This document shows positions 8,398 through 59,663 of a DNA stretch of 64,000 bases, piece by piece. Source of the stretch: Cephalotus follicularis (Eukaryota > Streptophyta > Magnoliopsida > Oxalidales > Cephalotaceae); assembly GCA_001972305.1 (NCBI GenBank), contig BDDD01002058.1, positions 1 to 64,000 of the forward strand, in the 5' to 3' direction. Made by a program: the position numbers and the translations under genes. Each line of letters begins with the position of its first letter. Within the stretch, counting starts at the first letter, position 1. The notes under the pieces are model-generated. The model had not been told where the DNA came from and ran no database searches. It saw nothing but the letters and a program-made list of their open reading frames with translations.

Positions 8398-8685
8398 GAG
8401 TCGACTTCTTTTCTGGAAATTCTATGCTTTACAAAATAAAGTCGACTTCTTTTCTGAAATTTTTTTTTGCCTTATGAAAATCACGTCGATCCTTTTTGAA
8501 AAACGTTGATCTCTTTGAAACACGTCGACTCCTTTTCAAATGCGTCGATGCTTTTCAAAACGCAACGTTTTCTGTATCGATTTCTTCCGTTCATTTAAAA
8601 GAACGTGTCGACTTCTTTTTAATCACGTCAACGTCTTTTACTCAGAAATCGACTTCTTCATAAAATCGTCGACCTCATGTTCATT
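8398..8685 (+). repeat. Phased TCGA-palindrome array between pol and the post-pol gene of P
   Basis: Repeated units such as CACGTCGACTCCTTTTCAAA, GTCGACTTCTTTTCTG and GCGTCGATGCTTTTC fill the spacer. TCGA or TTGA cores at 8486, 8506, 8525 and 8545 are 19-20 bp apart, the spacing seen in the LTR arrays. M has a counterpart at the same place (27930-28195). Confidence 0.7.
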
Positions 8686-8880
8686 TCTCACCTTACCCCC
8701 ATTTCTGAGTTTTCAAAAAATTTCTACACTCTTTGTTTTTCTGTCAAAAATCGTTCTATTAGGTCGTAAACCACTCTCTAATTCCTTCTCCATCTTCAAA
8801 AACAGTTTTCATTTCATCCAAATCATCTGTTTTTATCATTCTCTGTGTCTTTCCATTGTGAATGCCAACTGTTTGTAAAA

Positions 8881-10206
8881 ATGGTTAGATCAAAGTTTGC
8901 TGCCAAAAAGAAGGGTGCTTCATCTTCTCAGCCACCGAAATCTGCTAAAAAGCAGAGGCTTGAGATTAGAGAACCTTCCCCTGATCCTGCTCTCCAATCG
9001 GATTCCAAATCCGAAGAGCAAGCCCCTGTCCCATTGAGAAATATTGTTTTTGTGGACAAAAGAGTCATGGGAGGCAGAAATATCGACTTGGATTTCTGTT
9101 CCTCCGAGTTTTCGTTTGTTTCCTGGTTAGATAATCTCCATCTCCTCCATCTTGTTCAAATTTCTGAGCCTTTTTACATCAAATTGGTCAAGGAATTTTA
9201 TTCTAACCTTAGGATGGTTTCTAGCCCCAATGAGGAATTTGCATTGTCCTCATCTGTTAAAGGGGAGAGAATTTATCTAAATGCTAGGATTCTAGCATCC
9301 ATTCTACACATTCCACATACCGGTTTATATGTCTTTGAACACAAAAAATGGCCGGAGGTTGAGGGTTTTCACCCTAACCAAATTTTGTCTATTTTATACC
9401 CAAATGATCCAAATGTTCATCCTAATATGGCACTGACCACCAATAGATTGTCAGTGGACCATAGGCTTCTCCACCATCTTATTGTGCATCAAATTCTACC
9501 CACCGGTGGAGGGTATGCAAAATTGTCTAGGATGCAAGTCTTTCTCATGTGGTGCATCCTTTCCAAAATTGAGTTTTATTTTCCTCTCCTCATGCACAAG
9601 ACTATGGTTAGAGCATTCTCACAACAGAAATCAGTTCTACCATTTGGCTCCATTCTTACCAAAGTCTTCCAACATTGTCATATTCGGCTAGAAGGAGAGA
9701 TAACAACCAAATTGAAGAAAGAAGACACGTACAACAAGAGTACTTTGAATCGGATGGGGTGGAAGAAACAGGAAGGGATTTGGACCTATTGCCCCAAAGT
9801 GGATCAAGGGCCAAGGATTGCTATTGAAGAACAAGAAGAGAATCCTCATTGGGAAGCTCAAGGTGAAGCTGCTCCTGCTCAGGCTCAAGCTCAAAGCTCC
9901 TCATCCACCACTGATTATGATAGGGTGATGGAGTTCATGCGTTCTCAATTTGCTTCCATGCAAGCCTCGCTTGAAAATAAATTTGAGCAAGTCAACACGC
10001 GACTCACTAGATTGGAGAACGATCATAAAATACTTCATTCCGACTACGAAAATGTTCATGACACCATCTACTACGATCTAAAAGTCGTTAAGAGGTGTCT
10101 AAAAAGAATGGAACGAAAGCTTGTCGATTCCAAGACTATTGATCGTTGCGAAGAGACTTCGGGCGATGAATCCGATTCCGATGCTTCTCCTCCTGCTGAT
10201 GCCTGA
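8881..10206 (+). CDS. Post-pol ORF of P (putative plant transposon protein-like, coiled-coil end), intact
   Basis: This open frame encodes 441 residues from MVRSKFAAKKKG to a TGA at 10204-10206. An in-frame ATG 12 codons upstream (8845) is an alternative; I chose 8881 because the M homolog also aligns best from an equivalent Met (MTKTK). Basic N-terminus, then IREPSPDPALQSD, then a conserved core (VDKRV, SWLDNLHLL, FYIKLVKEFYSNLR, RILASILHIPHTGLY, LLHHLIVHQILPTGGGYAK) resembling the 'putative plant transposon protein' domain found in retroelement-linked ORFs. The C-terminal third has heptad-like coiled coil (MEFMRSQFASMQASLENKF, then TRLENDHKI) and an acidic tail. I see no signal peptide or membrane segment. 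It occupies the place of the Sirevirus envelope-like gene. Function unknown. Confidence 0.8.
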   Translation: MVRSKFAAKKKGASSSQPPKSAKKQRLEIREPSPDPALQSDSKSEEQAPVPLRNIVFVDKRVMGGRNIDLDFCSSEFSFVSWLDNLHLLHLVQISEPFYIKLVKEFYSNLRMVSSPNEEFALSSSVKGERIYLNARILASILHIPHTGLYVFEHKKWPEVEGFHPNQILSILYPNDPNVHPNMALTTNRLSVDHRLLHHLIVHQILPTGGGYAKLSRMQVFLMWCILSKIEFYFPLLMHKTMVRAFSQQKSVLPFGSILTKVFQHCHIRLEGEITTKLKKEDTYNKSTLNRMGWKKQEGIWTYCPKVDQGPRIAIEEQEENPHWEAQGEAAPAQAQAQSSSSTTDYDRVMEFMRSQFASMQASLENKFEQVNTRLTRLENDHKILHSDYENVHDTIYYDLKVVKRCLKRMERKLVDSKTIDRCEETSGDESDSDASPPADA

Positions 10207-10861
10207 TCTTGTTGTTGTTTTCTGTTTTGTTTCTTGCTGCTAGTTTTGTTTTCATTTGTGTTGTAATGAAACTAAGTGTGTATGTATTGTTTTGTAAGAC
10301 AATGTTTTGTTAATGAATTTATGATATTAATGAAATGTTTATGTGTTTATGAAATTGTGTTTATGAGATGATGTTTATACAGTTTTATGAATTGTGTTTA
10401 TGATTGTATGAATGAGTTATTTAATTTATGATATAATTGTGTTGAATGAATTATTGCCGATAATTATGTTCATTGCCGATATTTTGATATTTTTATGCAT
10501 AATGCCTATATTCACTCTCTTTACCCTTGCTTTTATTAAGGGGGAGCTAATGATTTCTGCCTTTTGTAGAACTTTTTGATGCTATACAAAAAAGGGGGAG
10601 AAATGCTAATGGCTCAAAAGAAAATGGGGAGAAATATGTTATGCTTGGGAAGAAATGCTAACACTTGATTTTGGGAGAAAAGGCTCAATATGAGAGATTA
10701 AGACTAAGACTCATAACTCAGTGCTTATTTGATATTGCATGAACATTACAATGCTTACATTATAATTTGTCTCTATTGGTATTCACTTATATTTTTAAAT
10801 TGGTATTAATTTAATTTATGCCTTTTGAGTAAATTTTTGTCATCATCAAAAAGAGGGAGAT
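10207..10861 (+). other. P 3' untranslated region with repeated polypurine tracts
   Basis: Four purine tracts lie between the post-pol gene and the LTR: AAGGGGGAG near 10540, AAAAAAGGGGGAGAAATG near 10587, AAATGGGGAGAAAT near 10623, and AAAAAGAGGGAGATT just before the LTR, preceded by CATCATC. Several polypurine tracts are a reported feature of Sireviruses; the last is the functional position. The rest is AT-rich with TTTATGA repeats. Confidence 0.8.
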
Positions 10862-12143
10862 TGTTGACGATTTAGTCTCAATCTTAGTTTTGATGATAAC
10901 ATATTTGCATTTAACAAGTTTACTTGATGTGCAAGAAAATACAAGTTCAATACCAAAGCAAAAATACCATCTGTAGAAGAAGACATCGACTTTCAAGGAA
11001 TAACATCGACGTCCGTACAGGAAGACATCGACTCCTTTAAAGAAGACATCGACGCCTTTCATGCCAGAAGTTACAGGACAATTTGGAGTAAAGACATCGA
11101 TGTTTATCAGTAAAGACATCGACGTCCGTACGAAAGAAGTCGATCCCTATCTTAAAGACATCGACGGCTTTAGGTGCCAAAGTTACAGGACAATTTGGAG
11201 TGAAGACATCGATGCTTATCAGTAAAGACATCGATGTCCATACGAAAGACATCGACGCCTTTCAATAGACATCGACGCCTTTCTAGAGCTACCTGCATTT
11301 CCCAGAAAATACATCGACTCCCACAGAAGAAGACGATGTGATGTTCAAAGATTCAAATCCTGGAGTTTTTCCAGAAATGACATCGACGCCTTTAAAAAGA
11401 CATCGATGTCTTTTTAAATGAACAAGACCCGGGAAACATGGAACGGCTAGTACGAGCACTTCCAACGGCTATCAACTATAAAGACATCGACGCCTTTTCT
11501 AAAGAAGTCGACGTCTTTATGTCAGCAGAAGACAAATTCAAAGATTGCAACAACACATTATTAAATCAAAAGCTTCCATGATTTATGCAACGGCTACAAA
11601 TCTTTTATGGCTATAAAAGGAAGATTGAAACCTAAAAAGAATAACAACAATTCAGAATTATTCACATCAATCACACAACATCAAGAGAAATATCAAATTC
11701 AAGCATACTTGTGTAAAAAGCTCAAAGTGCTCTATATTGCCCTACAAAGCTTCTAAGCTTTATTCTTTGAGATTTTCAGAGTGTTTCATATTGAGAGCTG
11801 GATTATTCATATCAACCTATTTGAGAGGTTATTTTGTAAACACTTTCAATTACTTGTAAAAGAGGAGAATCCTCTAAGGCTTTGAGGTCAAAGTTTTGTG
11901 ATTGAGGTCAATCACGAATTTGCGAGGTGTAACGAATTGCTGCCTTAATCAATTCGAGATAGTGGAAACTCAAGGAGCTCCCTTGGGAAAAGTGGACGTA
12001 GGCAAGAGTTAGCCGAACCACTCTAAATTCGGAGAAGTTTTTCTATCCCTTCACTATTTACTTTGAAAGTTTTTAATTTCCCGATTTTACTTAAATATTC
12101 AATTCACCCCCCCTCTTGTATATTGCAAGAGTGTTTTATTTCA
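10862..12143 (+). repeat. P 3' LTR with a class-A TCGA array
   Basis: It starts TGTTGACGATTTAGTC and ends TTTTATTTCA, matching M's 5' LTR in reverse. From about 10980 to 11520 it contains some twenty palindrome units of the type AAAGACATCGACGTCTTT. Several neighbours are 20-22 bp apart. An ACCCCCCCT tract near its end (about 12107) corresponds to the 21-G run in M. Confidence 0.85.
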
Positions 12144-12413
12144 GTACCCTAAAGCGCAGACGCTTGAATCTGGGCGTCGACGGTTTGAGTGTTTCTTCAA
12201 CTTCTCCAAACGCTTCACCGGTAGACGCTTAGGCCCTTGTCTCGACTGCCTCTTAAAGCGCTGACGGTTTAACCTTGGGCGTCGACAGTCTGACCTGAAT
12301 CTGCAGAATTCTTGCTGTTTTGCTTATTTCATGGCATTCTTGCACATCAAGAAACTTTGTTAAACACAAATATGTTATCATCAAAACTTAGGATTGAGAC
12401 ATAAATGTCAACA
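12144..12413 (-). repeat. N: 5' end of a minus-strand Sirevirus LTR, truncated
   Basis: Read on the minus strand it starts TGTTGACATTTATGTCTC then TTTTGATGATAACATATTTG, the Sirevirus LTR start also seen in P and M. It is cut after about 270 bp, at the end of P. Unlike P and M it carries class-B palindromes (GCGTCGACGG, AAGCGCTGACGGTTT) instead of class A. The right edge abuts pararetrovirus sequence. Confidence 0.75.
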
Positions 12414-13579: not shown

Positions 13580-16542
13580 TGTCACACCCCGTTATTTCCA
13601 TTCCATTAAAGACAACATATGTGGTGATATCAGTTATAAGATAATAATCCAACATTCTACATTTAACGAATTCGTTAACATAAGCGGAAGCATTCATAAA
13701 CTGGATTACATAAAATTTTATCCGCACGCATCTCATACTACGTGCATATTCAAAACCAACAATAATCCTTTTACATAAAGAAAGTAAAACAACAACAACG
13801 AAGTGTGATCTTTCAATACAATACAAACAAAACGAATAAAAACCTTAACAAGAAATAGAAGCTCTCCAATAAGCTTCAGCCGCACTTCTCGAATGCCTTC
13901 ACTTAATATGAAATTGTAGGGGTTAGCCGTTGTCCTCACTTCGCTAAGTGGGAATAATGCATGAGAAGGAATATATAAATGCAACATGCATGACATTTTA
14001 TTTTTTTTAAAATAACATATTTAAGTATTTCAATACATAAGCAATCATGCCAAGTATCCATAGACAATACAATTCAAGAATACCGCACAAGGGTAAAATC
14101 AATCCATACTATGGTTGGGTGACACATGTCGCTAACTCCTAGCACTAACTGCGCACCACCTAACTATCACCTTACACTCCGAAGATGATAGATCAAGTAA
14201 CATTTACTACCGGCGTTAGCGGGCAGTTTAACAAATAAGATCTGCAAGGCAGATAAGTTTGGGTGAATACTCTAGCCAACTCCTGGCACCTAGGATCACC
14301 TCCGTAGCCAGTGACCTCTGCCATCACTCGACTAACGGCATTAAGCATAGACAAAGAATTCAATCAATTCAATAACAATATCACATATATAATGTATGCA
14401 ATATAGTAGTAGTTTTCTTTAGAAACATTTAACATTTCAATAACTGTGCATCTCCTTGGAGGAAATAGTATTCAATACGGTAATGATGCCTCTCTTGGAG
14501 GAAAATCAGAAATCATTAGGTTTCATTTGAAAATGATAGTTGAAATCATTAATTTTGCATATAGCACTTAGTAGGTTCAATCTTTTGAAGTAAGAGAACA
14601 ATAATGTTTATGAACACTCAAACTAGTATATATTAATTATAACAGTAGCATATACAGCAAAATAGTAAGGACAACAGCAATTCAAGGATTCAATAAGGTC
14701 ATTAGCATACTATAATCATTCTTGCACAACTCCCACAAGGAGTGCATACGTTGTTTAATTTCTCAAATGTAATTATATAAGGCCAGGATTGACTGTCACA
14801 ATCATCCCATATGGAGGCCAGGGTAATTACATTCAATTTAATGCTTAAACAGTACCTATATCAGAAATTTATCTTAGGACAGTCGGCTGTTCTCAAGAAC
14901 AGTCGGCTGTTTTGATTTAGTAGTAGACTGATTTGATTAAGTAGTCGACTGTCGTGAAGAACAGTCGACTGCTTTGCCCAGAATTTGACAGCCAGTAACA
15001 GGGCATGCATATTCAAGGTCCAAAATACTAACTCAACCACACATGCAATCAAACAGGAAATTATCCACACATGATATGCACATTATATCTTCGAAAACAT
15101 GTCAGTACCCCTACCTTAAACGCTATCCCGAAATCAATTTCGATTGATTTCTCTCTGTAGTGTCCAAGTCCTTCAACAAACTCAATCTTCCAATCTCAGT
15201 AGGAATTTATCTATACCATTACATGTTCGAAGGTTCAGACATTTAACCAGCAAGTTTAACTAATTATCCAGTTACAATTTACTACTCCATCGGCAGCCTA
15301 TCAACAAATCCATTAAGTCTCACTTTCACATTTTTAAACAACTTCTCATTTCATCTTAATTTTCAGGTTTAATCATTCGTACTCATGTCAACAGTGGATA
15401 TATATTACTAATATTAGTACGTTTAATCCACTAACAACCTAATATCCAACTAGTAGCTCATCATTAGCTCATAAGTTTCAACTCTTATTGAACCATTTAC
15501 CATTTCTATCTCAATTCAAACTTATTAACTCTTAATCAGGTTGACAGTGGTTATTATACTTAGATTCAGTAACTTAACTATCATCCTTATAACCATGGCA
15601 ATGAATTCGGATTAGGGACTTACCAGGAAAATCAAAGCTTCCAAGTCTCTTTGAACACTCAAATCCTCAAAATGCAACTCCACCGAATCTTCAGCAAGAG
15701 CCCCTCTATCCTTAGTGTTTCTAACTCTCAAAACACTCAGGCAGCCTCTGTTTATAAGGGAAAAAGTATTCACAATCCCGTTTTCAGTTATTAACTCTCC
15801 ATTCAACACTTCCTATTTCTCTCTCTCTCATGTTCACTTCTCTCTCACTCTTTTCTTCTCCCAGTTTCTGTCTTGCAGGTTGCAGGTCTGCAGAGTACAT
15901 GCAAGGCACTCTTCTTGCATGTTATGGCAGCTGCTGACTCGCATAACACTTGTCCCTCATGCAATGCCACAGTTCTGTCTCACATGCATGCACAGACACA
16001 TGTTCTGTGCCGTTCCAGTCGACTGTGTAGGAAGTCTAGAGGGGGGGTGAATAGACTTATAAAAATTAATCTAGCAAATATACCACTAATTTAAAATAAA
16101 TACACAAACACACAATGCGGAAAGTAAAGAGTGTAGGGTTTAGAAGCCGGCTGGAATTGCCTGTACCTGCATACACAGCCTTGGCACAACTTTGGACACA
16201 AGATAAAGTGAGTAAATGCATTTGTAACTTAAGGAATTTATGCATAGAAGTAATATACGTTTGTTAATCATCAAAATAACATGTGATAAACAAATAATCG
16301 GGGTGGCAAAGGCCAACAGACTGTATTCACTTGGCAGTCTACTATCCACTCCTCGCATCAACCAGTCGACTGTTCCCCTGTGACAGTCGGCTGTCGATGG
16401 CTGATTTTTGGTTATTTAGGTTTATTCCCTTAGTTAAATTCACAACCACAATCAATATAACAATTGGACATTAAATTCAAGTAAGTTCATATTTTATTCA
16501 TCAAGAGTACAATATACACGGATTGAAATTGCGGTTATTACA
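13580..16542 (-). repeat. Y 3' LTR (left copy), carrying a 293-bp insertion
   Basis: It matches the right LTR throughout except for the insertion at 16026-16318. It contains class-C palindromes AACAGTCGACTGTT: TCG(A/G) cores at 14883, 14903, 14945, 14965, and at 16366 and 16387. The dyad GGTTAGCC ... CGCTAAG lies near 13920-13950. Confidence 0.95.
16026..16318. mobile_element. Small solo LTR, 293 bp
   Basis: The segment is absent from the right LTR of Y, begins TGTAGGAAGTCTAG, ends GGCCAACA, and has the 5-bp duplication GACTG on both sides (16021-16025, 16319-16323). A GAGGGGGGGTGAATAG tract near one end resembles, on the minus strand, the CACCCCCCC end of copia LTRs. It is too short to code and may come from a terminal-repeat-in-miniature (TRIM) type element. 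Confidence 0.8.
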
Positions 16543-16581: not shown

Positions 16582-17792
16582 TTACATTCCAAATAAGTGA
16601 GGAAATGTCTCCATCATTTCGTCTTCACGCTTCCACATAGCTTCCTCTGCTCCGTGAAAACGCCACAGTACTTTTACCATAGGAATAGTCTTATTCCTCA
16701 GCACCTTCTCCATTCGATCCACTATCTTCGTCGGCCTTTCTTCATACGACAATTTATTACTGATGAATCCATGGTTGTAGCTCAATATGTGAGATGGGTC
16801 AGGTACGTATTTCCGTAACATGGAAACATGAAATACATTATGCATATTCGACAACTGGGCGGTAGTGCAATCTGATATGCCACATCCCCCACTCTTTCCA
16901 GAATCTCATAGGGTCCAATATACCTTGGAGCCAACTTCCCCTTGAGGCCAAAACGGTGTATCCCTTTCGAAGGCGAGATCTTCAGGAAAACATGATCTCC
17001 CTTTTCTAATTCTAGCTTCCTCCTCTTGACGTCGACGTAACTCTTTTGCCGGCTCTGGGCAGCTAGCAGTCTCTTCTTGATTATTTCCAATTCATCAGTA
17101 GTCTCTTATACCAAGTCTGGTCCCAACACTTGTCTCTCACCTACCTCGTCCCAGCAAATAGGCGATCTACACTTTCTCCCATACAAGGCTTCATAGGGAG
17201 CCATTCCATTGCCGGTGTGAAAACTGTTGTTGTAGGAGAACTCAATCAGTGCCAGATGATCCTCCCAACTCCCAGTAAAATCAATCATGCAAGCTCGCAA
17301 CCTATCCTCCAGAGTCTGGATGGTACGCTCGGACTGTCCGTCGGTCTGTGGGTGGAACGCAGTGCTGAAGTTCAATGTTGTTCCCATCGCTGCTTGGAAC
17401 TTCTTCCAGAACCTCGAAGTGAACCTAGCATCTCGGTCACAAACAATACTGACTGGCACTCCATGCAAACTCACTATCTCCCGGATATACAATCGAGCAA
17501 GTTTCTCGATAGAATACGTCATGTTCATTGGAAGAAAGTGAGCGGACTTAGTGAGCCTGTCCACTACAACCCACACTGCTTCGTGCTGATTCCTTGACCT
17601 TGGTAATCTCGACACGAAGTCCATGGTCACATGCTCCCATTTCCACTTAACCACTGGCAACGATTGTAGCAATCCCGCAGGTTTCTGATGTTCATCCTTC
17701 ACTCTCTGACAGGTCAAACATCTTGCTACGTATTCAGCAATCTCTCTTTTCATACCACTCCACCAGTAGTTCTTTTTCATGTCATGCCACAT
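16582..17792 (-). pseudogene. Y integrase with chromodomain-like C-terminus, broken
   Basis: The integrase core shows CLTCQRVK (zinc-binding end), TMDFVSRLPRS, the catalytic Asp of CDRDARFTSRFW, and HPQTDGQSERTIQTLE with the catalytic Glu. Then come YGRKCRSPICW, the [14 protein letters not shown] motif, [16 protein letters not shown], and a VKVLWRFHGAEEAMW segment typical of Tekay chromodomain ends. An in-frame stop sits at 17106-17108, and one base is missing near 16860. The enzyme would insert element DNA, and the chromodomain would guide it to chromatin. Confidence 0.9.
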
Positions 17793-17885
17793 CTTGGAAC
17801 TTCCAGGGTGAACATTGTATTTTGACTTGTGGGCTTGTTGCAGTAGTTAATTTCTGATGCTCTCGTCATCCGTAACACATATCCT

Positions 17886-19511
17886 TCATCGGAACCTCAA
17901 TATGCCATCATTATGAATGGAGAATTCAGAATCAGTGACTAGGTTCTCATGAATACTCCATAACTCAGTGTCACTACATTGAACAGTCAGAATACGCTCC
18001 AGAAGTTCCTGTTGTGCTCTCAGATTTGCCACAATAACTCCTCGGGAAACCATGAACGGATTCCATCTCTGAAATTCCTCCAATAGCTTCCACTGTGAAA
18101 CCATTGTGCCAGCAATCATTGCCTTGCGACTCAGCGCATCCGCCACTACATTCGCCTTTCCCGGGTGGTATTGAATGTTGCAGTTGTAGTCATTAAAGAA
18201 TTCCACCCATCGTCTCTGTCTCATGTTGAGCTCATTCTGGGAAAACAAATACTTTAAACTTTTATGGTCAGTAAAGATCTCAAATTGAGCACCATAGAGG
18301 TAGTGCCTCCATTTATGCAAAGCAAACACTATGGCTGCCAACTCAAGATCGTGTACGGGATAGTTTTCTTTGTACGGTTTTAACTTCCTCGATGCGTATG
18401 CAATCACCCTACCATGTTGCATAAGAACACATCCCAATCCTTTCCCAGAAGCATCAGTATAGACAGTAAAACCCTTATTACCCTCTGGTAATGCCAACAT
18501 TGGCGCTGAAATCAACCGACTCTTCAACTCTTGGAAACTTTCCTCACAGGAATCATCCCACACAAAACTTGACTTCTTCTGAGTCAACTGTGTCAATGGT
18601 GTGGCAAGCTTCGAAAACCATTTGATGAAGCTTCGATAGTATCCAGCCAATCCCAAGAAACTACGAACCTCAGTAACGTTTCTCGGCTTGGGCCAATCAA
18701 TAATACTTTCTATCTTCGAAGGATCCACCGACAATCCTTCACTCAATACTATGTGACCTAGGAAAGTCACATGATCCAGCCAAAATTCGTACTTGTTGAA
18801 TTTGGCGTATAGCTGTTCCTTCCGTAGTGTCTTCAATACAATTCTCAAGTGATGCATGTGTTCCTCAATGCTCTTCGAATAAATCAGGATGTCATCTAGG
18901 AATATAACGACAAACTGGTCAAGATAGGGCTGGAACACTTTGTTCATCAGACACATAAAGGTTGCAGGAGCATTTGTCAAACCAAACGACAGTATTAGAA
19001 ATTCGTAATGCCCATATCTGGTTCGAAATGCGGTCTTCTCCACATCACCTTCTCTGATCCTCAATTGATGATAACCTGTTCTCAGGTCAAGTTTGGAGAA
19101 TACAGTAGAGCCTTGCAATTGGTCGAAAAACTCCTCAATATGTGGCAGAGGATACTTGTTCTTCAACGTTACCTGATTTAGCAACCTGTAATCGACGCAT
19201 AACCGCATCGATCCATCTTTCTTTTTCACAAACAAGAACGGTGCTCCCCAAGGTGACACACTCGGTCTGATAAAGCCCTTATCAAGGTAATCCTGCAATT
19301 GAATCTTCAACTCCTTCAGTTCGGCAGGAGCCATTCGGTACGGTGCTTTGGATATAGGAGCAGTCCTAGGCAATAGTTCAATGCTGAACTCTATATCTCT
19401 CTTCGGTGGCAACGAAGTGAGATCATTCGAAAATACATCAGGAAATTCACATACAACAGGGACTTGTTCAATACTAGGTGTACCTTTCGTATGATCAATC
19501 ACATACGCCAA
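17886..19511 (-). pseudogene. Y reverse transcriptase-RNase H
   Basis: One open stretch of 541 codons covers the end of the protease linker and the whole RT and RNase H. Motifs in order: [61 protein letters not shown], catalytic FLDD (18891-18902), [17 protein letters not shown], RNase [20 protein letters not shown] and [13 protein letters not shown], then [14 protein letters not shown]. It is in frame with the protease upstream (one TAG at 19542-19544) and with integrase downstream (stops at 17886-17888 and near 17846). Confidence 0.93.
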
Positions 19512-19541
19512 ATAGCCTTCACATCCTTGCTTTAGATACTT

Positions 19542-20156
19542 CTATGCTCGAGTATATGAAATGATCAGAGCAGAATCATTCTTCTCTTCGATAAACTTGC
19601 ACTCAGTCCCATCTTGAAGATAAAATGTCATCATCTTGTTGTAGCAATCAACACAAGCATAATGAGCATACAGCCAGTCCATCCCCAGGATCACATTGAA
19701 ATCCCAGATAGGCAATACTATCAAGTCAGCAGATAACTGAATCCCGGCTACCGTGATTTCACAATCTTTCATTATGGTGTCAGATGGAAGACAAGTACCC
19801 GCAGGAGTACTAACCTCCAATACATAAGGTAATCTAGAAGTAACACCATGCAAGTTGCAAGCAAATTCAGATGCAATGAATGAATGTGTCGCACCAGGGT
19901 CAATCAACACATGAGCTAGTATGCCAGATATAAAAATGGTGCCTCCCACAACAGTAGTAGATTCTGGCACATCATCTCTAGATAAGGTGTAGACCCTACC
20001 TTTCACAATCCCTTTCGCGGTGTCCTTCTGCGGTTGAGCAGCCGCAACACTACCACTCGCACCAGCACTTCCCTGTTGGCCGCGTGCCTGATCCCTCATC
20101 ATTGGACAACAATTCAGCATATGATCTTGTGAACCACACCTCAAGCATTTCCCCAT
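19542..20156 (-). pseudogene. Y zinc knuckle and aspartic protease
   Basis: It starts with the nucleocapsid CCHC knuckle (CLRCGSQDHMLNCC), then a linker, then the retropepsin motif VLIDPGATHSFI and the second conserved patch ILGMDWL. This is the normal gag-protease join of gypsy elements. The piece is in frame with gag upstream, separated from it by two stops, and with RT downstream. Confidence 0.9.
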
Positions 20157-20336
20157 CTTTTTCCAGCACTCAGTCTCATCATGGTTTTGACGACCACAAA
20201 AAGTACATCCACCCGAATTCTGTTGACTGCTTCGGCTAGGAGTCCTTGATCATGAGTTACTACGTCGAGAACCTCCTTGCCCCCGGTTACCAGACTTTGA
20301 CGATTTAGCAGGATTATTACTCCCTTGCCCCTGTGA

Positions 20337-21127
20337 CTATGTGGCCCTCGATTGATTAGTATGAGACCGTTCCGCTCTCCTTTCATTAGCATCGGCTTCC
20401 AGAACCATCGCCCTTTCAGTAATATCTACAAAAGAGGTCAGCTGCAACATTAACAGTTTAGATTGGATATCAGGTCGAAGGCCTTTTAGGAACCTTCGGA
20501 TCATTCTCGATTCACCCTCCAGAAGATAAGGTGTATGTCTTTCCGGCTCCACAAATCTAGTCTGGTACTGAGCTACCGTCATGTCCCATTGGCGTAACTC
20601 CATCAGTTCGGTCTCCCTCCGGTCACGTTCTTTCTGTGGCACATAAGTTGTAAGGAAATCAGACTGAAATTTGTCCCAAGTCCTGTCAAGTCCACGAGAT
20701 TCCCACTTTGCTTCAGTCCTTTCCCACCAATAAGTAGCCTCGCCCCATAAGCGGTATATAGAAAAGTTGAGTTTCTGCTCATCAGTGCACTCCAAAACAG
20801 CAAATATTTTCTCCAAGTCTCTAATCCACTGCTCGGCCACAGTAGCATTCAGTTCACCATTGAAAATCGGACGATTCTGTCTCATGAACAGCTCCAAATC
20901 TCTGCCAAATCCTCCTGTATGACAAGCTTCATGAGCATGCTGATAGGCCCGGTTAGCCTCGTACATCTGCCGTATCTGTTCCATGTTCGCTGCATTGGCT
21001 TGAATCTACTGCTGGAAAAGATCGACCATGCGGTAATATTACTCCTCTCTTCTTGCACTAGAGGAATATTCACTCCTTCATTTGCTGGCTCGTGCACTGG
21101 CGGTGCTGACTCCTTCATTGGCTCCAT
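20337..21127 (-). pseudogene. Y gag (capsid)
   Basis: The capsid region includes FMRQNRPIFNGELNATVAEQWI and WERTEAKWES, followed by FLTTYVPQKERD and FLKGLRPDIQSKL, a normal plant gypsy gag. The true start lies near MEPMKESAPPVHEP (21127), but a frameshift near 21000-21040 and a TAG near 21010 separate it from the main frame. A further stop ends the frame at 20337. Capsid would form the particle around element RNA. Confidence 0.88.
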
Positions 21128-27729: not shown

Positions 27730-27929
27730 TTTATCAAACAGGTGAAGTGCACAACACAAAAAGTTAAAACTGAAAGAAATAAGGAATTGGAGGACAAAAA
27801 CTGAACTTTGATGATGAGAGAAGAATGAGTAGAGTATGTTATTTAAAGACTAGAATGATTTTTAAAATTTTAGAAAGAAAAAAAATGCGGAGAAATCGTC
27901 CAGATGTGTAATAGTGAGATATAAAAGTT

Positions 27930-47220: not shown

Positions 47221-50200
47221 TGTCACACCCAGTTCCCATAACAATAATAAAAGTGGCGGCAATCAACATATAAATCCGGCTTATGCAATTTACCATAAAT
47301 TTAAAACTTTCCATAGCCATTAACAACTTGCAGAAGCATTTAAATATAAGCCGAATTAAAACGTAACATGCATCCCATACCACATGCTACAACAATAAAC
47401 ATCATCAAAGTTAACTGCCCTTAAACGGAGCGTGAACAATATTCATCAATACATCGATTCATTTATTACAATGATCCATTATCGTTTCTCGAAAGTAAAA
47501 ACAACATAAAACTCCATTTTGCTCCACGGAACTCAACGGTAACAATCCACTGAATCAACCTGAAATTAATCTGAAATTGTAGGGGGTTAGCCTTTGTCCT
47601 CACTCGGCTAAGTATAAATACAGTTCGGTTTCAAAGATAATGCATGTCATGTATGAATGCACAGTGATGCAGTACGGTATATATAACAGTATAACATATA
47701 TGTATCTATATATGCATATTCACAGTAAAGGCGCAACCCGTTAGGGCTACACCAACACAATCACGGTCATGTCCTCAGCGGACCAGTCACAAATCATGTC
47801 CTCAAAGGACCGAACAAACCATCAGTTATGCCTCAACGGGCCAACAATCCAGTAATACATGTCACAGCGGACAAACAACCCAATACGGTCAATCAATCAT
47901 GTCACCACGGACAACACCCTATGCGGGGATGCTTCCACTCTGTGTTTAGCACCCGGTCACTTCCACTCTGTGTTTAGCAACCCAGCTACTTCCGCTCTGC
48001 ATTTAGTAACGGCCACAACAGTCAATCAGTCACATCGGACAAACAATACATCAATCATGTCACATCGAACAAACAATCCAATTCAAGTTGCTTACACAAC
48101 AGTGCTTAGCAACCGGTTACTTACACAACAGTGCTTAGTAACCAAAAGGGAGTCCCTGGCTACTTACTCAACAGAGCTTAGTAACCATTGTATGGGAAAC
48201 CCAAGCTACTTACACAACAGAGCTTAGTAGCTTCCGTATATGGAATCTCTGGCTACTTACTCAACAGAGCTTAGCAGTGGAGTTCCTGGCTGCTTACTCA
48301 ACAAAGCTTAGTAATCCAAAAGGGAGTCCCTGGCTACTTACTCAACAGAGCTTAGTAACCATTGCATGGGAAACCCTAGCTACTTACTCAACAGAGCTTA
48401 GTAGCTGCCATATATGGAATCTCTGGCTACTTACTCAATAGAGCTTAGTAGTGGAGTTCCTGACTACTTACTCAATAGAGCTTAGCAGCCAAACACAATC
48501 AATCAATCCATTACAAGTAATTATTAACAAATATAAGACTCGTAAACAATACATTTCCAAATGTACATAGGTACTTTTAAAACGGTGCACAGTCTTGGCT
48601 ACTTACCCAACAGGGCTTAGCAGTCGTCACAAGTTTCTCAATCCCTTAAAACCACTTTCACAATCCTTTTGGAAAACATACATTTCCATATAACAATGAT
48701 TTAATAAACCATTTATATGCTTCTAAAATGAAGAACATTTTAGAAAATAGGTGATAGCTCAATCAACCATCGTATGCAATGCCAACATATGCTCAATAAT
48801 GCAAACGGGCTTTATTCGCGTCAACATGCACCATATAGGCGTTAATGTTCAACCCAGTCACTTAAGCGTCACCGCTTAACTCTTAGTGTCAATCCTTTCA
48901 ACCAGAAACTTTACGCGTCAATATCTCATCCATTTGGAGTCGATGCTCTGAGGTAGGAACCTCAGGTATCAACAGCACACGTGTCCATTCTCACATACAA
49001 CGAATCATGGCGTCGACGTTTTTTTGTAAGCGTCGACGTTTATCGTGAACCAAGACTCATTGTCCATATAACAATCCATAGCATCGACGCTTCTTTCCTA
49101 AGCGTCGACGGTTAAGCGAACCAAAACACGGTTCCCTCAACACGCCTCAAAACCAATAGAGTTCAAGCATACCACACATACAATCTGATCTACAATCATT
49201 GTAAAACACGATATGCATGATGGGTTAACTATTCATAGTAACCCTAACACAGTCACACAATCCATAATCCACAGTCCACAACAATTCTACGACACGATAT
49301 GCATAACAGGTTAACTACTCACAGTAACCCTAACACAGTCACACAATTCACAATTCGCAAACCATGCATTTCATCAATGACATTACAATATTATTGAACT
49401 GAAACTTGCATGTATAGCTTTCCCTACCCCTGATTCAAAGCTAGGAATCGCAGTAGCAGCAGCACAGTCGAGCCGCAGGTTTAATTGCTGAACCTTTCCA
49501 ATAACCGTTGAACCAAAGCCGGTTCTTGCTAATTAATCCTTTCCACTGCCAAATCCAATTGCCGCACACACACTGCACATACAACACATTTCTGTTATGT
49601 TTGACACACAAAACATTTTCGTCGCCGAAACGCCGGCCGGATTCTGACCGACACGACCAGACGGTGAAACACCCGTCAACGGGTTCCATATTGAACGGTC
49701 TACTCAAAACCGGTCAAGACTCGCCAGGAATCGGCGCCGACGGTCGGCAGTGAGTCGTGACTCACTGAGTCAACTCGTCGGACCTCCACAGGTCCGATCA
49801 CCACCCAAAAATGCCACACATTCACCAGTCCTACACACCCATGCCCGTGACTCGCCAAGACTCAGCGCCAAAAGCGCGGTCTCAGGCGGCCGTGAGTGGA
49901 CTCGCTGAGTCGACTCAGTTAACTGATTCCGGACGTTTCCGGCCGAATCACGCCTCACCGGTGGTCGAAATGGGTAGAGTGGGACTTCTACACCATAACC
50001 CACACCACCCGCGACGCTAACGGTGCCGGGAAATGCCGGGAGGAGGCGCGACAATGGCGGTAAAGGAGAAGAAAAAGAAGAGAAAAAGAGAAGAAGGGGG
50101 AGGAGGTTACCGGTCGGTGGCGTGCCTGGGTTGACCAGCGTGCTCTCCCGGTCCGGTAGCTGGCTCCGACGTCCTCTCTCTCCCTCTGCTCTGATCTCTC

Positions 50201-50593
50201 TCCCAATCTCTCTCTTTCTCTGGCGCAGGCGCCTGGTGCGCCCGATGTCTCTTTCTTTGCACGGGCACGTGATGCGCCCGTGTCTCTCCCTCTCCCTTCC
50301 TTTATTTTGCTTCTCCCTTAGTATTTTCTGGTAAAACACTAAGGTCTGGGTCCCGATTTTTCCGCGAATCACGACATAAATTATCCGAACAACCACCAAA
50401 ATAATCACGATAATATTGCGAGCATTTGGGCTTTATTATCGCGCATTAAAAATAGGCTTTATTAGCCATCTTAGCTAACACGATTACGACTTAAATGCGT
50501 GATGCCTTTTTATTACTCCGGCTCTATCGATTTTATTACGATCGTACACGCACCAATTTCATAATAATTATTTATGAAATTCGGGGCGTTACA
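47221..50593 (-). mobile_element. W: solo LTR, gypsy type, innermost insertion
   Basis: It begins TGTCACACCCAG, ends TTCGGGGCGTTACA, and is flanked by CCAAC (47216-47220, 50594-50598). It contains a degenerate tandem array (about 48060-48500), the GGTTAGCC...GGCTAAG dyad near 47585, class-B pairs at 49013/49033 and 49084/49105, and a GC-rich tract (about 49540-50340) with CT runs. The overlapping open frames in the GC-rich tract occur on both strands and look like LTR leader, not gene. Confidence 0.95.
48060..48500. repeat. Degenerate tandem repeats in W
   Basis: Around ten copies of a unit containing CTACTTACTCAACAGAGCTTAG, with variable linkers such as TAACCATTGCATGGGAAACCC; copies run 50-65 bp apart. 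Confidence 0.8.
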
Positions 50594-51563
50594 CCAACAT
50601 AATATCTCAAAAGGTATATTTTATTCATCATTGGATACAAAATACATGAATTGAAATTTCGGTTATTACACAATCAATCAATGTGTCAATACAATCATTA
50701 ACACCGTTTCAAACACTTGAACACCTCAAGTGAGGCTCTAATCAAGTGACAATATGAAAAGAAGTTGAAAACCAGCTTTAAAGTAGCTAAAACTCCTTTC
50801 AGTCCAGTAGGCGTCGATGTCCTTTGTGAAAGACGCCGACGCATCTATAAAACGTTGGAAAGACGTCGATGTATTTGAAAGACATCGATGTCTTTCCCTA
50901 TTTGTGTAGAGATATGGCCGAAAGACGTCGATGTCTTTGAAGAAAGACGTCGACGCGTTTCAATAAAAATAGCCTGGGAATGCGCATTGATGTTCGGCAT
51001 CGATGTCTTTCCTGGGAAAAAACATCTCGAGGCAAGGTCTTCGATGTCTTTGCTACGGAATCACAGATACAACACTCTGAAGCGAAAGACATCGACATCC
51101 TTGGGCTAGGGGTGAATGTCTTTGCTGGCAGGGTCAAGTTTTGTGCAGAAAAACCAGCCAATCTCATAGCAAAATACAATTTAAAGCCATTATTTGCAAA
51201 CCAAGGTTTAAAATCAATCATTTGAGGTTAGCAAAACTTGGTACGACCTTCAAAATTCGGTTTCAATCCTTCTAGATAAGTTAGATCAAGGAAATCAATA
51301 AAACCCTAGTTTTTCAATTCAATGTAATACAATCACTCAATTCAATCAATCATTCAATCAATTGTGCAATTAAGCATTAGACAATACAGTAGGGAAGTCC
51401 TACCTTTAATGAAGCTTCAAAAGTTGAGCTTCCAATAAATTGATCGGCAGAAATCGCCAAAAACCCACTACTTCTTGTTCAATCGGTAAGCCAAGACTTG
51501 CAATCGCTATTCTTGTTGATGGAGATGCAATCCAGTTGCAAGAGGGAGATGGAGGCTGTCCAG

Positions 51564-51601
<38 letters not shown>

Positions 51602-51819
51602 AGGAGAAGAATGAGAAATGTGGGAGAAATGAGAGAAAGAATTGACTTATATAGTCGATTCAGTCAACTCTCCGAAACTCAGCCCAAAATCCCGACTATA
51701 CATGCATATAACCAATACAATAACAATAGGTATAAGAATACATCAATTCTAATTCGATATAGTACAATTCGGTACAATGTATGCATGAAGAGTACAAAAA
51801 GCGAATTCGGGTCGTCACA

Positions 51820-54286: not shown

Positions 54287-55633
54287 TGAAATAAAATAAT
54301 AATAGCTCTTGAATAATACAATAGGGGGGGGGGGGGGGGGGGGGTGAATTGAATATTAGAGCAAATACAAACAAATAAAAATTTAAAGTAAAGAGAATAG
54401 GGATAGAAAGATTCTATGTTTTTAGAGTGGTTCATATAACTCTTGCCTACGTCCACTTTTCCCAAGGTAGCTCCTTCAGTTTCCACTAGCTCGAATTGAT
54501 TAAGGAAGCAATTCATTACACCTCACAGTGTTGTGATTGACCTCAATCACTAGACCTTGACCTCAAGACCTTTAGAGGATTCACTCTCCTCTGTTACAAG
54601 TGTTTGTAAAGTGTTTACGATGTAACCTCTCAGTAGGTTATAATTTGCTTACAATAAAGAACAAGGGAGAATTACAGAAATGACTAAGGAAATAAATAAA
54701 GCTTTGAAGCTAAGAGCACTTTAGACTTTGTAGAATGTAACTTTGCTTGATTGCTTGAGTTCTTTGTTTCTTGGTGATTTCTGAAGGCTTGGGCCTTCCT
54801 TTATTTAGCCAAAAAATCCATGTATCCGTTGCTTAAATCATGGAGGTTGAGATTTGAAAAATTGATGATTTGTTGTAAATCTGTTATGTAGCCGTTGGAG
54901 CAAAGCCGTCGATGTCTTTGATAAGCGTCGATGCCTTTACCAGTTAACTAGCCGTTGCGAGCATCCAGGGCGTAATTTTTGTTGAAAGACGTCAATGTCT
55001 ATAAATGGCGTCGATGTCTTTTCTGGAGTTGTCGCCAGGATTTGAAGATATGAGCAACACATCGATGTCTGTAATGGGCGTCGATGTCCTTTATGGAAAC
55101 ATAAAAGTTATGAGAAACACATCGATGGCTTTGTAAAGGGATCGATGTCTTTTGATTCGACGTCAATATATTCTTAGAATCGGATCGATGCTTATCTTCA
55201 AAAATGACCTGTAACTTTTTGGCATAAACACATCGATGTCTTTGTAAAGGGATCGATGTCTTTGAGTTAAACAGTCGATGTCTTCTCTGAAATAAATCGA
55301 TGTTTTGAATGAAAATTGCCTGTAACTTTCTGTGCTAAAGACGTCAATGTATTCTCTGAAAAGGATCGATGTCTTTAGTGAAAATTGGCACGTAACTTTA
55401 GGTGCTAAAGACGTCGATGTCTTTTGAGAAAAAGATCGATGTCTTTCATGAATAACCACATGTAACTCCTGTTTCTTTAAAGGCGTCGATGTCTTCCTTC
55501 AATAGCGTCGATGTCTTTTATGTAAAACTGTCTTTTGCCTTTTGTGAGATTTCAAGTATCTTGCACATAAAATAAACTTGTTAAAAGCAAATATGTTATC
55601 ATCAAAATTAGGATTGAGACTAAAACGTCAACA
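54287..55633 (-). repeat. M 5' LTR with class-A TCGA array
   Basis: The minus-strand start TGTTGACGTTTTAGTC lies at 55633 and its end TTTTATTTCA at 54287. From about 54905 to 55512 there are some twenty-five units of AAAGACRTCGAYGTCTTT type, for example TCGA at 55233 and 55253. A 21-base G run lies at 54324-54344. Confidence 0.93.
54324..54344. repeat. Homopolymer of 21 G near the end of M's 5' LTR
   Basis: P has a run of about seven C at the equivalent place, so this run has expanded, or is inflated by sequencing or assembly. Confidence 0.9.
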
Positions 55634-55869: not shown

Positions 55870-56665
55870 TGTAACACCCCGTGCCCGCTGGGCGGATACG
55901 TGGCATTACTCTCAATCCAATAACAATACAATGGTCGGGACTAGAAATATAAAAATGTGGAAAAACTTAAAACTTTGCAATACATATCATTACGCGGAAG
56001 ATACAATACAACAATCCATCTTTACAGTACAATGCAATACAATCCTTTACAATACCAATCTTTTACAATACACTCATCAACCCTTCAATACAACACTACT
56101 AAGAACTCTGTCAGATCCAGAAGAACCCCTCGGTCGATGGAATCTTCAATCCTTCGGTCCGCTGCAACCTGCTGCCCTACCTATGCCGCACACAAAGGTA
56201 CAACACAGCCCCACCCTGAAGGATAGGGTTAGCCACACAGGCTAAGCAGAAACCTCATGCAGCATGTATGCATGTACAATGTGCAATATCGGTGACAATC
56301 TATGCAATAACAATGTACGGTGTACAATATCAATGCATGATATGGCAAATGCATATGTACAATTGGCGATAAGACTACCCGTATGACAATGGCCCATAAC
56401 AGAGCATACGGATAGGTTCTATAACAATCAATCAATGGCAGACACTCAATGGTGGTGTATAAAACACCCAATCAATCAAATACAATATCAATCAGTTAGC
56501 AGTCATCAATCCCACGGAAGGTAGTCCTTAAAAAAAATGGGAGATCTATCTACGGTTCTCAGATTGATCAGGTTTGGGACTCATAGATCTTCCAGCCTAT
56601 GGTTGGGTCAGTACAATCTCGATGAGCTACAACCGAAGGAGCTACTGATACCGTTAGGGAGCTAC
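55870..56665 (-). repeat. X3: partial LTR of family X
   Basis: It starts TGTAACACCCCGTGCCCG and follows X1 from 43556 closely to about 44395, then stops at GGGAGCTAC, where another element begins. The GGTTAGCC...GGCTAAG dyad lies near 56228. Possible target bases AATAC precede it; the other end is not in the window. Confidence 0.85.
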
Positions 56666-57062
56666 TGTCAAGACCCGTTCCCGCTAACTCTAAGGGACAT
56701 GTGCCCTGACCGGGGATGGCGCTCCTCTTGCCAACAACCCTCTTAAACTGTAACTGCCCGAGGAGAAAGCTTGGGTGGGGCTGGGCTGGGCGCGCGGCTA
56801 ACTGGGCAGCAGGGGCAGAGGACCCAACACCTCTCCCGCTCATGTCCAGCGCTACATCAAAACAAAAATCCAAACGCGCCGTATAACTTAAGCTAAAAGA
56901 TTCACTCAACCAAGGCCCTAAAACGTTTCGCATTACTTAAGCCACACGTGCTCCTCACATGGACTTAACATAACGCGCAAAGTATGCCCAGGGAGAGCAC
57001 ACACGTGCAACTCACGAGCACACCCAAGCAACATGCCTGGGGAGAAATGCACGTACACCACA
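56666..57062 (-). repeat. U: LTR end of an unidentified family
   Basis: It starts TGTCAAGACCCGTTCCCG, i.e. an LTR end GGGTCTTGACA on the minus strand, right after GCTAC in X3. GC-rich at first, then mixed. It is cut at 57062 by Z. No match elsewhere in the window, no coding sequence. Confidence 0.55.
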
Positions 57063-59663
57063 TGTAATATCCCGTTTCGATGCTTACATGTTTTATGTTG
57101 GGTTTATACCATTTGATATATGCTATGGTTTGTGAACGCTTTGATTCTTAGCTTGAAATTCTTTTATTTTTGTTTTCTGGGCACAAAGCGCCGACGCTCT
57201 TATTAGAATCGCCGACGCTTTGGGTGCTGTGTGACACGTTGACGCTTAAACGTGTGACATTGATGTGTTTTGTATTTAAGTGCTTAACTGTCGACGCTTT
57301 AAAGTAAACTGTCGACGCTTTAGTAGGTTTTCCATACCAGTTTGGATGGTGACATGTTTAAGGAAAAATGGGGTTTTTACCATTTTTGTTGATCTGATTT
57401 TCCTTCTATGCTCGAAACCGAATCTGCATGAAAGGAAACTTATTAGTTGCACGATTTTACCATTAATTTTACTCGTTTTTCTGGTTTTGAAAATCTAAGT
57501 ATTATTTTGAAAGAAAGCTATATGCACAATTTGACAAACACAAACAGCAACTTTGCAAGCATTTTTCTACACCGATTTTGACGTCTTTTGAAGGTAATTT
57601 CTAAACGAAAGTTGTAGTATGCACTATGTAGTTTCTATACCACCCATTAATTCGTATTGAAACAGGCTAGAATTTAATCGTGAGCATGATTTTAGAAGCC
57701 TGTTGAAACTAAATTTCTTCTGTTATCAATATATGTTCATGGGTTTTATGCATAACTTGTAATATTAATGTTTAAAAACAAAGAATATCATGTTATTGAC
57801 GTATGTATATATATCACTGTTTTACGGATTATACATAGGAAAAATCAGATTATAGTTCATGACTTTGTAAACTATTTTAAAAACCATGTTTTGACATAAA
57901 CATGCTATGCTAAACTTGTTATTTTCATGATTGTGTATTTATAATCACCATATTGATAGTTACAGACTCATATGACATGTTTTTAAGTTTGGTTATTGCT
58001 ACTATAACTTCTGTATATGAAAAGTAGGAGTTGTTCATGAAATTGAAAATGTTTTCTGCAACTGGTACTGTGTGTTTGACGCAAACCGTCGACGCTTGTA
58101 TTTTAAGCGTCGCCGCTTTGTACTTTTTTGTGCTGTGGTCAGTCGACTCTTTGCTCGACGCTTTGTCCTTTTGTGTAATGAAACCGTCGATGCCTAGGAA
58201 CAAACTGTCGACGCTTTGTCTGGCAGTTTCGATAATTGCTACATTTTATGTTATGTGATGTTTGGACTCATATGTTTAGGTATTAATATCGTTCGTGGTG
58301 GAGTTTAGGACACTTCTAGGGTGCTTTTGTCCGGTATTCTAGATTGTTTAGATTTTCGATCTGCTAAGGCACGGATTCTTCGATTCTTGGATATTCCTTC
58401 GGTTAAATTAAATAAAGTTAATTTTTACTGATACATCGTTCTTGAATGGATTTATGCATTTATGATTATACTCTTGGTTTTATTCAGAATAAAATTCATA
58501 TTTTGATTGGATATACTCATTTTGATAATAATATTACTGAAACAAATTTATTATCGTTACATCGGATACATATTTTCTGTTATAAAAAAATGTGTTATTG
58601 CTTGGACATGGCTTCCACTTTAGGGAGTATGTTATACTTCAGATACAGATCGGATTTTGATTTTGATTTTTGAGTATGATCCTCTTTAAATAATTTCAGA
58701 TATGTCTGGAGACAGTTTACATAAGTATGTTTTAGAATTTTTTTCGAATTAAACAATGCTTTAGCATAATAACATACAGAGAAAAACCCTACCTATGAGG
58801 TATCATAGGGATGTTCTTTGGCACGGAGGACATGACACCTACCGTGGCGGTGTGATCGATCTACGGCGTCTCTTTTAAATATGTATCCTGAGAGTAGGAT
58901 ATGGATNNNNNNNNNNNNNNNNNNNNNNNNNNNNNNNNNNNNNNNNNNNNNNNNNNNNNNNNNNNNNNNNNNNNNNNNNNNNNNNNNNNNNNNNNNNNNN
59001 NNNNNNNNNNNNNNNNNNNNNNNNNNNNNNNNNNNNNNNNNNNNNNNNNNNNNNNNNNNNNNNNNNNNNNNNNNNNNNNNNNNNNNNNNNNNNNNNNNNN
59101 NNNNNNNNNNNNNNNNNNNNNNNNNNNNNNNNNNNNNNNNNNNNNNNTTTTCATAAAGTTATGATGATTTTATAACTGCTCATTTTTAAATATTCTGTTT
59201 TACATTTCAAGAATATTTACTATGTTACTTTGCTGAATTCCAAAGTTTCAAGATATTTTGTTTACCGTTTAATGTTTTAATTCTTTATCCGTGCTGAGGT
59301 TTGCTCAGCCGTGTTTTGTTTCTATGCGGCAGGTTTCCAGAAGGATGGGGGAAACGTGTGATGAGAGTTACCCACTTGTCAGAAGACCATCTAGGAATTG
59401 GTCTATTGTGTTTACAGTAATATTGATCATGTTTTGGAACAGTGTCAGACTATTTTTCTGCTTACATAATTTTTGAACATCGGATTATGGTTTACTTTTT
59501 TTATTTATGGATGGTTAAATTTTCATACTCTATTTTATATCAATTTGTTATAAGTTATTAGACCACCACATCCGTTTCGCATCAGTCCATTGTTTAGGCT
59601 TTTTCGTTATGTTTCAGTTTGATATTATGACCTGTAAGGGCTCCCACCATCGGGGGTGTTACA
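57063..59663 (+). repeat. Z LTR copy 1 (about 2.6 kb, with an assembly gap)
   Basis: TGTAATATCCCG to CGGGGGTGTTACA. Class-B pairs at 57191/57212, 57291/57312, 58089/58110 and 58187/58208. The hairpin GCTGAGGTTTGCTCAGC lies at about 59292-59308. The gap at 58907-59147 corresponds to about 204 bp in copy 2. No primer site follows. Confidence 0.8.
58907..59147. other. Assembly gap (241 N)
   Basis: Unknown bases only. Copy 2 suggests that about 204 bp belong here (60576-60779). Any apparent open frame across it is an artefact. Confidence 0.99.

Follow-up and report, generated by a model that had tools for sequence, protein, structure and literature searches.

Phased TCGA palindromes of three arm classes in copia and gypsy long terminal repeats of Cephalotus follicularis, putative binding modules for host factors

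The first 64,000 nucleotides of contig BDDD01002058.1 (contig C2058) of the carnivorous plant Cephalotus follicularis, assembly GCA_001972305.1, are hereafter referred to as the window. They hold long terminal repeat (LTR) retrotransposons nested in one another, several of which carry short palindromes centred on TCGA that follow one another at a step of about 21 bp. This locus raises the question of why elements of two superfamilies, Ty1/copia and Ty3/gypsy, should bear the same palindromes at the same step, and whether host proteins might be the cause. Genome-wide pattern searches were performed on the whole assembly (1,577,397,061 bases in 9,746 contigs). As an independent sample of 200 kb, 20 stretches of 10 kb were chosen blind by contig number, the loci of which are labelled L. 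The study concerns one genome, and spacing tests covered the window, the sample and one genome-wide pattern rather than every LTR. In the window, copia N and M contain RVT_2 and belong to Ty1/copia, to which P and the sample elements L005 and L011 were assigned by homology. Downstream of pol an open reading frame (ORF) matches PF20167, with scores exceeding the cutoff in N and L011 and falling below it in P and L005. We take N, P, M and similar copia elements to be probably of Sirevirus type. Among the gypsy elements, Y, with a Ty3-type gag, reverse transcriptase (RT) and integrase (INT) at 17106-21005 on the minus strand, and L018 were assigned by their domains, C and V by homology.

The initial annotation had described pairs or runs of palindromes whose TCGA cores are almost always 19-22 bp apart. 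Of the 23 positions listed for it, 20 indeed read TCGA, while one proved to be TTGA and two TCGG. In the window 47 TCGA pairs were 19-22 bp apart, whereas 2.4 were expected and at most 8 occurred in 200 shuffles. All but two of them (45/47) fell in LTRs, including the inferred LTR Z, or in linkers between copia pol and the envelope-like (ENV-like) ORF. The regions of copia T and gypsy G1, which had been described as devoid of arrays, contained no such pair, nor did positions 1-8380. The sample yielded 53 pairs against 4.6 expected (maximum of 10 in 100 shuffles). The pairing is real, the distribution of spacings being far from flat in all material tested, and shuffled sequence of the window and of the sample failed to yield as many pairs. 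Away from multiples of 21 bp the excess in the sample was smaller (e.g., 35 against 21.1 at 23-39 bp and 48 against 19.6 at 45-60 bp). Among all 256 tetramers, CGAC, GTCG, AGTC, TCGA and GACT showed the strongest enrichment at 19-22 bp in the sample, and 10-bp palindromes centred on TCGA gave the top ratio among 16 cores (61 against 10.5 expected).

The same was observed across the genome. The exact sequence AAAGACRTCGAYGTCTTT was found 51,413 times and its reversed control 187 times; the pattern CAGTCGACTG-N(0-30)-CAGTCGACTG had 48,687 matches and its reversed control 166, and a pattern for class A pairs (see below) matched 8,786 and 8,905 times, compared with 36 and 39. Among the 69 forward matches of the CAGTCGACTG pattern that were listed, all from contig C1 and some of them copies of the same LTR, 57 pairs were 19-22 bp apart (3 at 19, 12 at 20, 40 at 21 and 2 at 22 bp) and 12 were at 27-28 bp (4 and 8, respectively), no other distance within 10-40 bp being represented. 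Several of the 27-28 bp steps in class C arrays of contig C1 contain, as judged by eye, inserts that resemble each other and are of the type CTGATGCGTGTTGTGA or its reverse, perhaps a second site. Palindromes of at least 10 bp clustered near 21, 42, 63 and 84 bp (32 pairs at 19-22, 16 at 40-43, 12 at 62-64 and 9 at 82-85 bp), with minor groups at 27-29 (3), 48-50 (9) and 69-71 bp (7) and single pairs at 53, 79, 89 and 90 bp. Hence, the phase of about two helical turns persists outside the window and near multiples of 21 bp.

The paired sites also differ in composition from single ones. The core R-TCGA-Y was present in 158 of 172 paired TCGA sites, compared with 242 of 687 single sites (hexamer sums of window and sample). 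Perfect 3-bp arms flanked 97 of the 410 YCGR sites paired at 20-22 bp (CAG 79, GCG 9, ACA 6 and three others once each) and 62 of the 1,828 unpaired ones, the commonest being CAG with 11. In agreement with the earlier description of three palindrome classes, the arms of paired sites were mainly GACR (class A), GCG or CCG (class B) and CAG (class C), many single sites being imperfect palindromes; the classes were in part defined on the data analysed here, and locus counts are not independent events because some loci are copies of one family. Neighbouring sites shared their class in 72 of the 76 classed pairs. Altogether, 97 neighbour pairs comprised 27 A-A, 11 B-B, 34 C-C and 4 A-B combinations, no A-C or B-C combination, and 21 pairs with at least one unclassed site. 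The step was 21 bp in 11/11 neighbour pairs of class B, in 23/34 of class C and in 10/27 of class A.

Each class was encountered in both superfamilies. Class A is carried by copia N, M and P and by gypsy V, and X is a further gypsy carrier if its LTR ends, which resemble those of Y and G1, are trusted. Class B occurs in copia L005 and in gypsy C and W, class C in the linker of copia L011 and in gypsy Y and L018, both of which possess a primer-binding site (PBS), gag, RT and INT; L018 was called class C from an array at 206-382 of its locus, taken as its other LTR. In L005 the LTR, with class B sites at 4195-4333, precedes a copia gag and RT encoded in the same direction, and the class C linker of L011 (5892-5980) lies between the end of copia pol and the PF20167 ORF (E = 8.7e-18). 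Alignment of copia and gypsy arrays gave a best E-value of 1.3e-12. After masking 18 bp per site the similarity was gone, the best hit (E = 0.010) lying outside the copia array, although in class A only about 3 of 21 bases remain, and the test therefore shows no sharing beyond the sites and little more. The copies compared after masking gave no sign that entire array modules had passed from one superfamily to the other, and this reading was discarded. Thus, the claim that unrelated LTR families share the palindromes stood with regard to Ty1/copia and Ty3/gypsy, but it has to be restricted, as the gypsy-type families are partly related to each other. The sample locus L014 contains at 3289-5709 an X-like LTR (target site duplication (TSD) GAAAT, by eye) inside a broken gypsy gag; it was rejected as a coding link for X, the LTR being read as solo.

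Related gypsy LTRs, in turn, were found to differ in class. Homology between the LTRs of Y and C covers the final 1.1 kb and a block beside the second cluster, and their clusters occupy matching places from the sense start (146-223 and 1277-1297 in Y2, an LTR of Y; 179-268 and 1246-1362 in C). At these places Y carries class C and LTR C carries class B, the latter assigned from its listed sites, since the automatic caller had labelled it by one ambiguous half-site. A 23-bp block, AAGTGAGGACAAMGGCTAACCCC, was identified with up to two mismatches at 13 places in the window and the sample. At ten of them the 3′-end of the LTR followed 352-416 bp past the block start, while no LTR end was found within 900 bp at the other three. 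Bearers of the block include class A (V, L012), class B (C, W, L022) and class C (Y, L011, L015, L017, L018, L023) LTRs. In all seven gypsy LTRs compared (Y2, C, V, L011, L015, L017 and L023) both clusters had the same class. A possible counter-example is L017, where class C sites (2808-2912, 3789-3810) lie near class B sites (4018-4207). At about position 3820 of this locus there is an LTR-start-like sequence, TGTAATGACCC, in opposite orientation, by which the class B sites were read, by eye, as part of a second LTR.

A tree of 12 LTR ends, thin evidence with its midpoint root, only 57 bases for L022 and a long branch for L018, required four class changes, whereas the mean of shuffled labels was 4.7 and 55 of 200 shuffles were as low; therefore, classes are not shown to cluster on it. 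One fully supported side united five class C rows with one of class B. Class C at the place typical of the Y lineage had 5308 forward and 6180 reverse matches genome-wide (matches, not LTRs) against 12 and 14. In these data class tracks neither the superfamily nor the descent of the LTR and differs within one gypsy LTR lineage, with switching resting on the few LTRs of the Y/C, AAGTGAGGACAAMGGCTAACCCC and tree comparisons. The initial interpretation, cooperative sites on one DNA face reached convergently by unrelated elements, is partly supported by the two-turn phase, by the palindromes common to Ty1/copia and Ty3/gypsy and by the lack of pairs in the T and G1 regions.

As to their position, the arrays are placed within LTRs, and in four copia elements additional copies lie 5′ of the ENV-like ORF: in N and P (8401-8672 and 27931-28177), in L011 at the linker given above and in L005 at approximately 9370-9490, where further B-type sites, some of them with altered cores, precede the ORF weakly matching PF20167 at the end of the locus. 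The ENV-like ORF of N (8884-10203) shows up to 93% identity to predicted proteins of C. follicularis. In the LTR of copia N the array covers positions 127-649 of 1254 and a TATA box follows at 753. Both X1 and X2 contain, approximately 167 bp from the sense start, CTATATAAG within a short inverted repeat that is located 5′ of the array, unlike in copia N.

On the strength of these sequence features we lean towards the assumption that the arrays are convergent cis-regulatory modules for at least three cooperatively bound host factors, between which the elements repeatedly switched. Each site, a palindrome of 10-18 bp with an R-TCGA-Y core, would suit a symmetric dimer, as its own symmetry suggests. 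A repeat of about 21 bp, i.e., two helical turns, would place neighbouring dimers on one face of the DNA, able to touch each other; such contact is suggested because the two-turn spacing exists without conservation of the spacers. Depending on the arm that borders the core (GACR, GCG, CAG), a site would have one of at least three specificities, neighbours having the same one, and the presence of one class per array points to one protein per array. That these proteins belong to the host is suggested because unrelated elements share the classes and nothing else. Ty1/copia and Ty3/gypsy may each have reached these specificities on their own, and gypsy LTRs of common descent may have switched among them; class changes at fixed positions suggest that the place matters and the code is swappable. 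Finally, the location of arrays before the TATA box of copia N and, in Sirevirus-type copia elements, also just 5′ of ENV-like ORFs suggests control of promoters. The elements would thereby exploit host factors for their transcription and change over when a factor is unavailable or dangerous. A bolder version, a genome-wide regulatory code in which the two superfamilies have converged on three palindrome codes read by paralogous host proteins that assemble on one helix face at two-turn spacing, and in which an arms race moves LTR lineages from one code to another with all their site clusters changed at once, is tentative and, on balance, rather doubtful.

Several observations weigh against this interpretation. 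The spacing of class A is looser (19-22 bp, 19 bp being frequent, though uncounted, in the pattern listing), and part of it reflects unit length because the 18-bp palindromes nearly abut, which is also what made masking a weak test in this class. Steps of 27-28 bp do not fit two helical turns. The class A counts of the window are not independent, because 40 of the 72 TCGA sites of its class A LTR arrays derive from three related copia LTRs. With regard to promoters, the copia M LTR (array at 123-722 of 1296) has no match to TATAWAW. In gypsy LTRs such matches are AT-rich and scattered (V 861 and 1661; five in Y2; W 1877 and 2909; C from 2042), and in X1 and X2 a match lies upstream of the array. 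Moreover, for each of the 16 array stretches the folding energy was lower than the average of 25-60 dinucleotide shuffles, whichever strand was taken, the z-values ranging from -1.2 to -8.1 for the sense and from -1.8 to -12.5 for the antisense RNA.

This folding speaks for an explanation in which the palindromes act as RNA, their hairpins feeding small-RNA silencing or serving the element RNA, a role already suggested for the palindromes of maize Sirevirus; hotspots of small RNAs at such palindromes appear in the literature (PMC5311732, PMC10760457). We regard it as unlikely. By z-value the sense RNA was the weaker folder in six of seven class A LTR stretches (e.g., -6.8 sense and -12.5 antisense in the LTR of N) because GACA..CGTC gives A-C mismatches in the sense and G-U pairs in the antisense strand, X1 (-4.9 and -3.8) being the exception, and a sense hairpin as the selected product is accordingly disfavoured. 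Furthermore, hairpins need neither a 21-bp phase nor shared classes nor class differences among related LTRs.

Quite unlikely, in our opinion, is a neutral by-product, in which slippage or unequal exchange multiplies units, template switching copies arrays or motifs between elements and the step merely equals the unit length. Tandem Repeats Finder (TRF) reported units of 20-22, 70 and 111-112 bp in copia arrays, and class A sites in copia LTRs nearly all point the same way, as tandem growth would give: in the arrays at 10986-11508, 25679-25861 and 54909-55508 the AAAGACA half was upstream 34 times and downstream once, with three ties. Elsewhere, the bias was 8 to 1 in V and weak in X1, X2 and L014 (13 to 7), it ran the other way in the copia linkers (2 to 9), and class B showed no significant bias; a directional motif common to both superfamilies was dropped, since it is clear only in copia LTRs and V. 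In classes B and C, adjacent units resemble each other in their spacers no more, or at a few positions slightly more, than units taken from other arrays, which disfavours tandem duplication as the only origin of the step in these two classes, although old duplications may have spacers that decayed; for class A, with spacers of only about 3 bp, such an origin may still apply. The loss of similarity between copia and gypsy arrays on masking, weak as this test is in class A, likewise speaks against copied motifs. So does the exact sequence AGTTACAGG, which occurs six times in gaps of copia class A arrays (11069, 11181, 25766, 25836, 55208 and 55319) and nowhere else in the window, though copies with one mismatch exist elsewhere, including the LTRs of Y and C. 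In addition, the CpG of the core has mostly been kept: among the 12 commonest cores of CAG-NNNN-CTG, TCGA (45), TCGG (24), CCGA (17) and CCGG (4) account for 90 sites, as opposed to 6 with TCAA (4) or TTGA (2), a retention which is only suggestive because the background CpG observed/expected ratio is 0.66.

It is very unlikely that a trans factor encoded by the elements themselves, similar to VANC, binds the arrays and that gypsy elements exploit it. Available parts of PMC5735166 describe VANC targets as dense arrays of short motifs in the same orientation which change between families, and the Sirevirus-type elements do carry the extra PF20167 ORF; but the three classes span both superfamilies, while the VANC21 motif is given there as rare outside its own family, and in gypsy Y no extra ORF of at least 150 amino acids was seen between INT and the LTR on its own strand. 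Least credible is a chromatin role without activation, as sites of an insulator, silencer or nucleosome-positioning protein, with which the CpG core, the A/T-rich outer arms of class A and the retention of arrays on solo LTRs would agree, but not the location of arrays immediately 5′ of the ENV-like ORF, at which one would expect a promoter.

In form and place the nearest relatives of the arrays are the RM boxes of Sirevirus elements (Bousios et al. 2010, PMC2829016). The accessible portions of that paper characterize these as high-copy CpG palindromes, specific to Sirevirus among the Ty1/copia elements compared, that cluster in LTRs and, if the element has an ENV gene, also ahead of this gene, and a regulatory role is proposed for them. 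The likeness extends to the extra copies before the ENV-like ORF and to copy number, RM boxes having at least 8 palindromic copies per element and the N LTR 17 TCGA and the M LTR array 18, many of them imperfect. The RM model locates the cluster in the LTR's upper half, with a TATA box after it; such a box is so placed in N and has no TATAWAW counterpart in M. In contrast to RM boxes, the present sites have an R-TCGA-Y core and for the most part lack the CGG-CCG signature; the RMs listed there include two with a TCGA core, from Tnd-1 (ACAATCGATTGT), itself an exception regarding the signature, and Vitis (CGGTCGACCG). The phase of about 21 bp, the three classes in one genome and the Ty3/gypsy carriers also set the present arrays apart, and nothing on RM spacing or on gypsy RMs was found in the accessible text. 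The VANC targets of VANDAL elements (Hosaka et al. 2017, PMC5735166, in part) resemble our arrays as dense noncoding arrays whose motif identity shifts between related elements, but they belong to DNA transposons, with family-specific motifs and an element-encoded factor. As to host proteins, the CBF/DREB sites in PLACE as excerpted in PMC9138379 (CBFHV RYCGAC, CRTDREHVCBF2 GTCGAC) come close. RYCGAC is present on one strand of 138/172 paired TCGA sites versus 163/687 single ones; unlike it, 20 of the 172 paired sites read ATCGAT, and both the arms and the phase lie outside the listed site. CBF/DREB is only a candidate for the factor binding the arrays. Four motif strings gave no whole-word match in the literature searched. 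While arrays of palindromes were already known from the LTRs of Sirevirus and from the region preceding ENV (PMC2829016), the palindromes in Ty3/gypsy LTRs, the 21-bp phase, the three classes common to both superfamilies and the class differences within an LTR lineage appear to be new in relation to the literature searched.

Table 1. Features of the window that bear TCGA palindromes or belong to elements bearing them
Feature	Position	Strand	Remarks
Linker array, element N, copia pol to ENV-like ORF	8401-8672	+	Mixed class A-like and AAG-TCGA-CTT arms; copia RT 6218-7822, PF20167 ORF 8884-10203
LTR, copia N	10860-12113	+	Class A array 10986-11511, 17 TCGA; TATA box CTATAAAAGG ~100 bp past the array
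Second copia LTR fragment	12130-12413	-	Class B-like sites 12177, 12282; no 19-22 bp pair; 82% match to L005 (copia with gag and RT)
LTR, gypsy Y	13580-16542	-	Class C 14945/14965, 16019, 16366; TCGG site 16387
Other LTR, gypsy Y	21263-23948	-	Class C 22649/22669, 23723/23744, 23772, 23800
X1, partial gypsy-type LTR fused to copia P LTR	24428-25633	-	Class A array 24649-24964
3′ LTR piece, copia P (M family)	25634-25980	-	Class A array 25679-25864
Linker array, copia P	27931-28177	-	5′ of ENV-like reading frames 26449-27849
V, solo gypsy LTR within copia P pol	29980-32647	-	Class A pairs 178-316, 1073-1439 from sense start; conserved block 30347
X2 solo LTR, 3′ part	43556-44801	-	TSD AGAAT; interrupted by C
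C, solo gypsy LTR	44802-47220	-	TSD CAATC; first 76 bp at 50594-50669; class B 45932-46051, 47026-47118; related to Y
W, solo gypsy-type LTR inside C	47221-50593	-	TSD CCAAC; class B array 49013-49108; conserved block 47583
X2, 5′ part	50670-51819	-	Class A array 50814-51095
5′ LTR, copia M	54338-55633	-	Class A array 54909-55511
Z, probable gypsy-type LTR piece	56664-58337	+	Class B 57291/57312, 58187/58208; extent, orientation and superfamily inferred only

The order of insertion (Table 1) was read by eye from end sequences and TSDs: W lies in C, C in X2 and X2 in copia M, whereas V was inserted in copia P and X1 abuts the LTR of P. A PBS-like sequence, TGGTATCAGAGC, is located immediately inside position 21263 of gypsy Y (by eye). 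Other tandem repeats reside in the LTRs of W (48087-48493, units of 29, 46, 93 and 174 bp) and V (30702-30821, 30-bp unit). The 3′-end of the copia M LTR contains a run of 21 G (54324-54344; C on the sense strand), and a poly-C-rich signal is a reported feature of Sirevirus. A run of 241 N (58907-59147) within the first G1 LTR may be an assembly gap or sequence that was withheld.

If the interpretation as modules for host factors is true, unrelated retrotransposons in one host would have converged on a common set of DNA-binding proteins, and the history of their control regions would be readable as moves among a few discrete codes. Which host factors drive plant retrotransposons would then be directly testable, and baits for each class would be feasible, because the arrays are not only short and abundant but also phased and specific for their class; by variation of spacer length a phased array moreover offers a built-in test of cooperativity.

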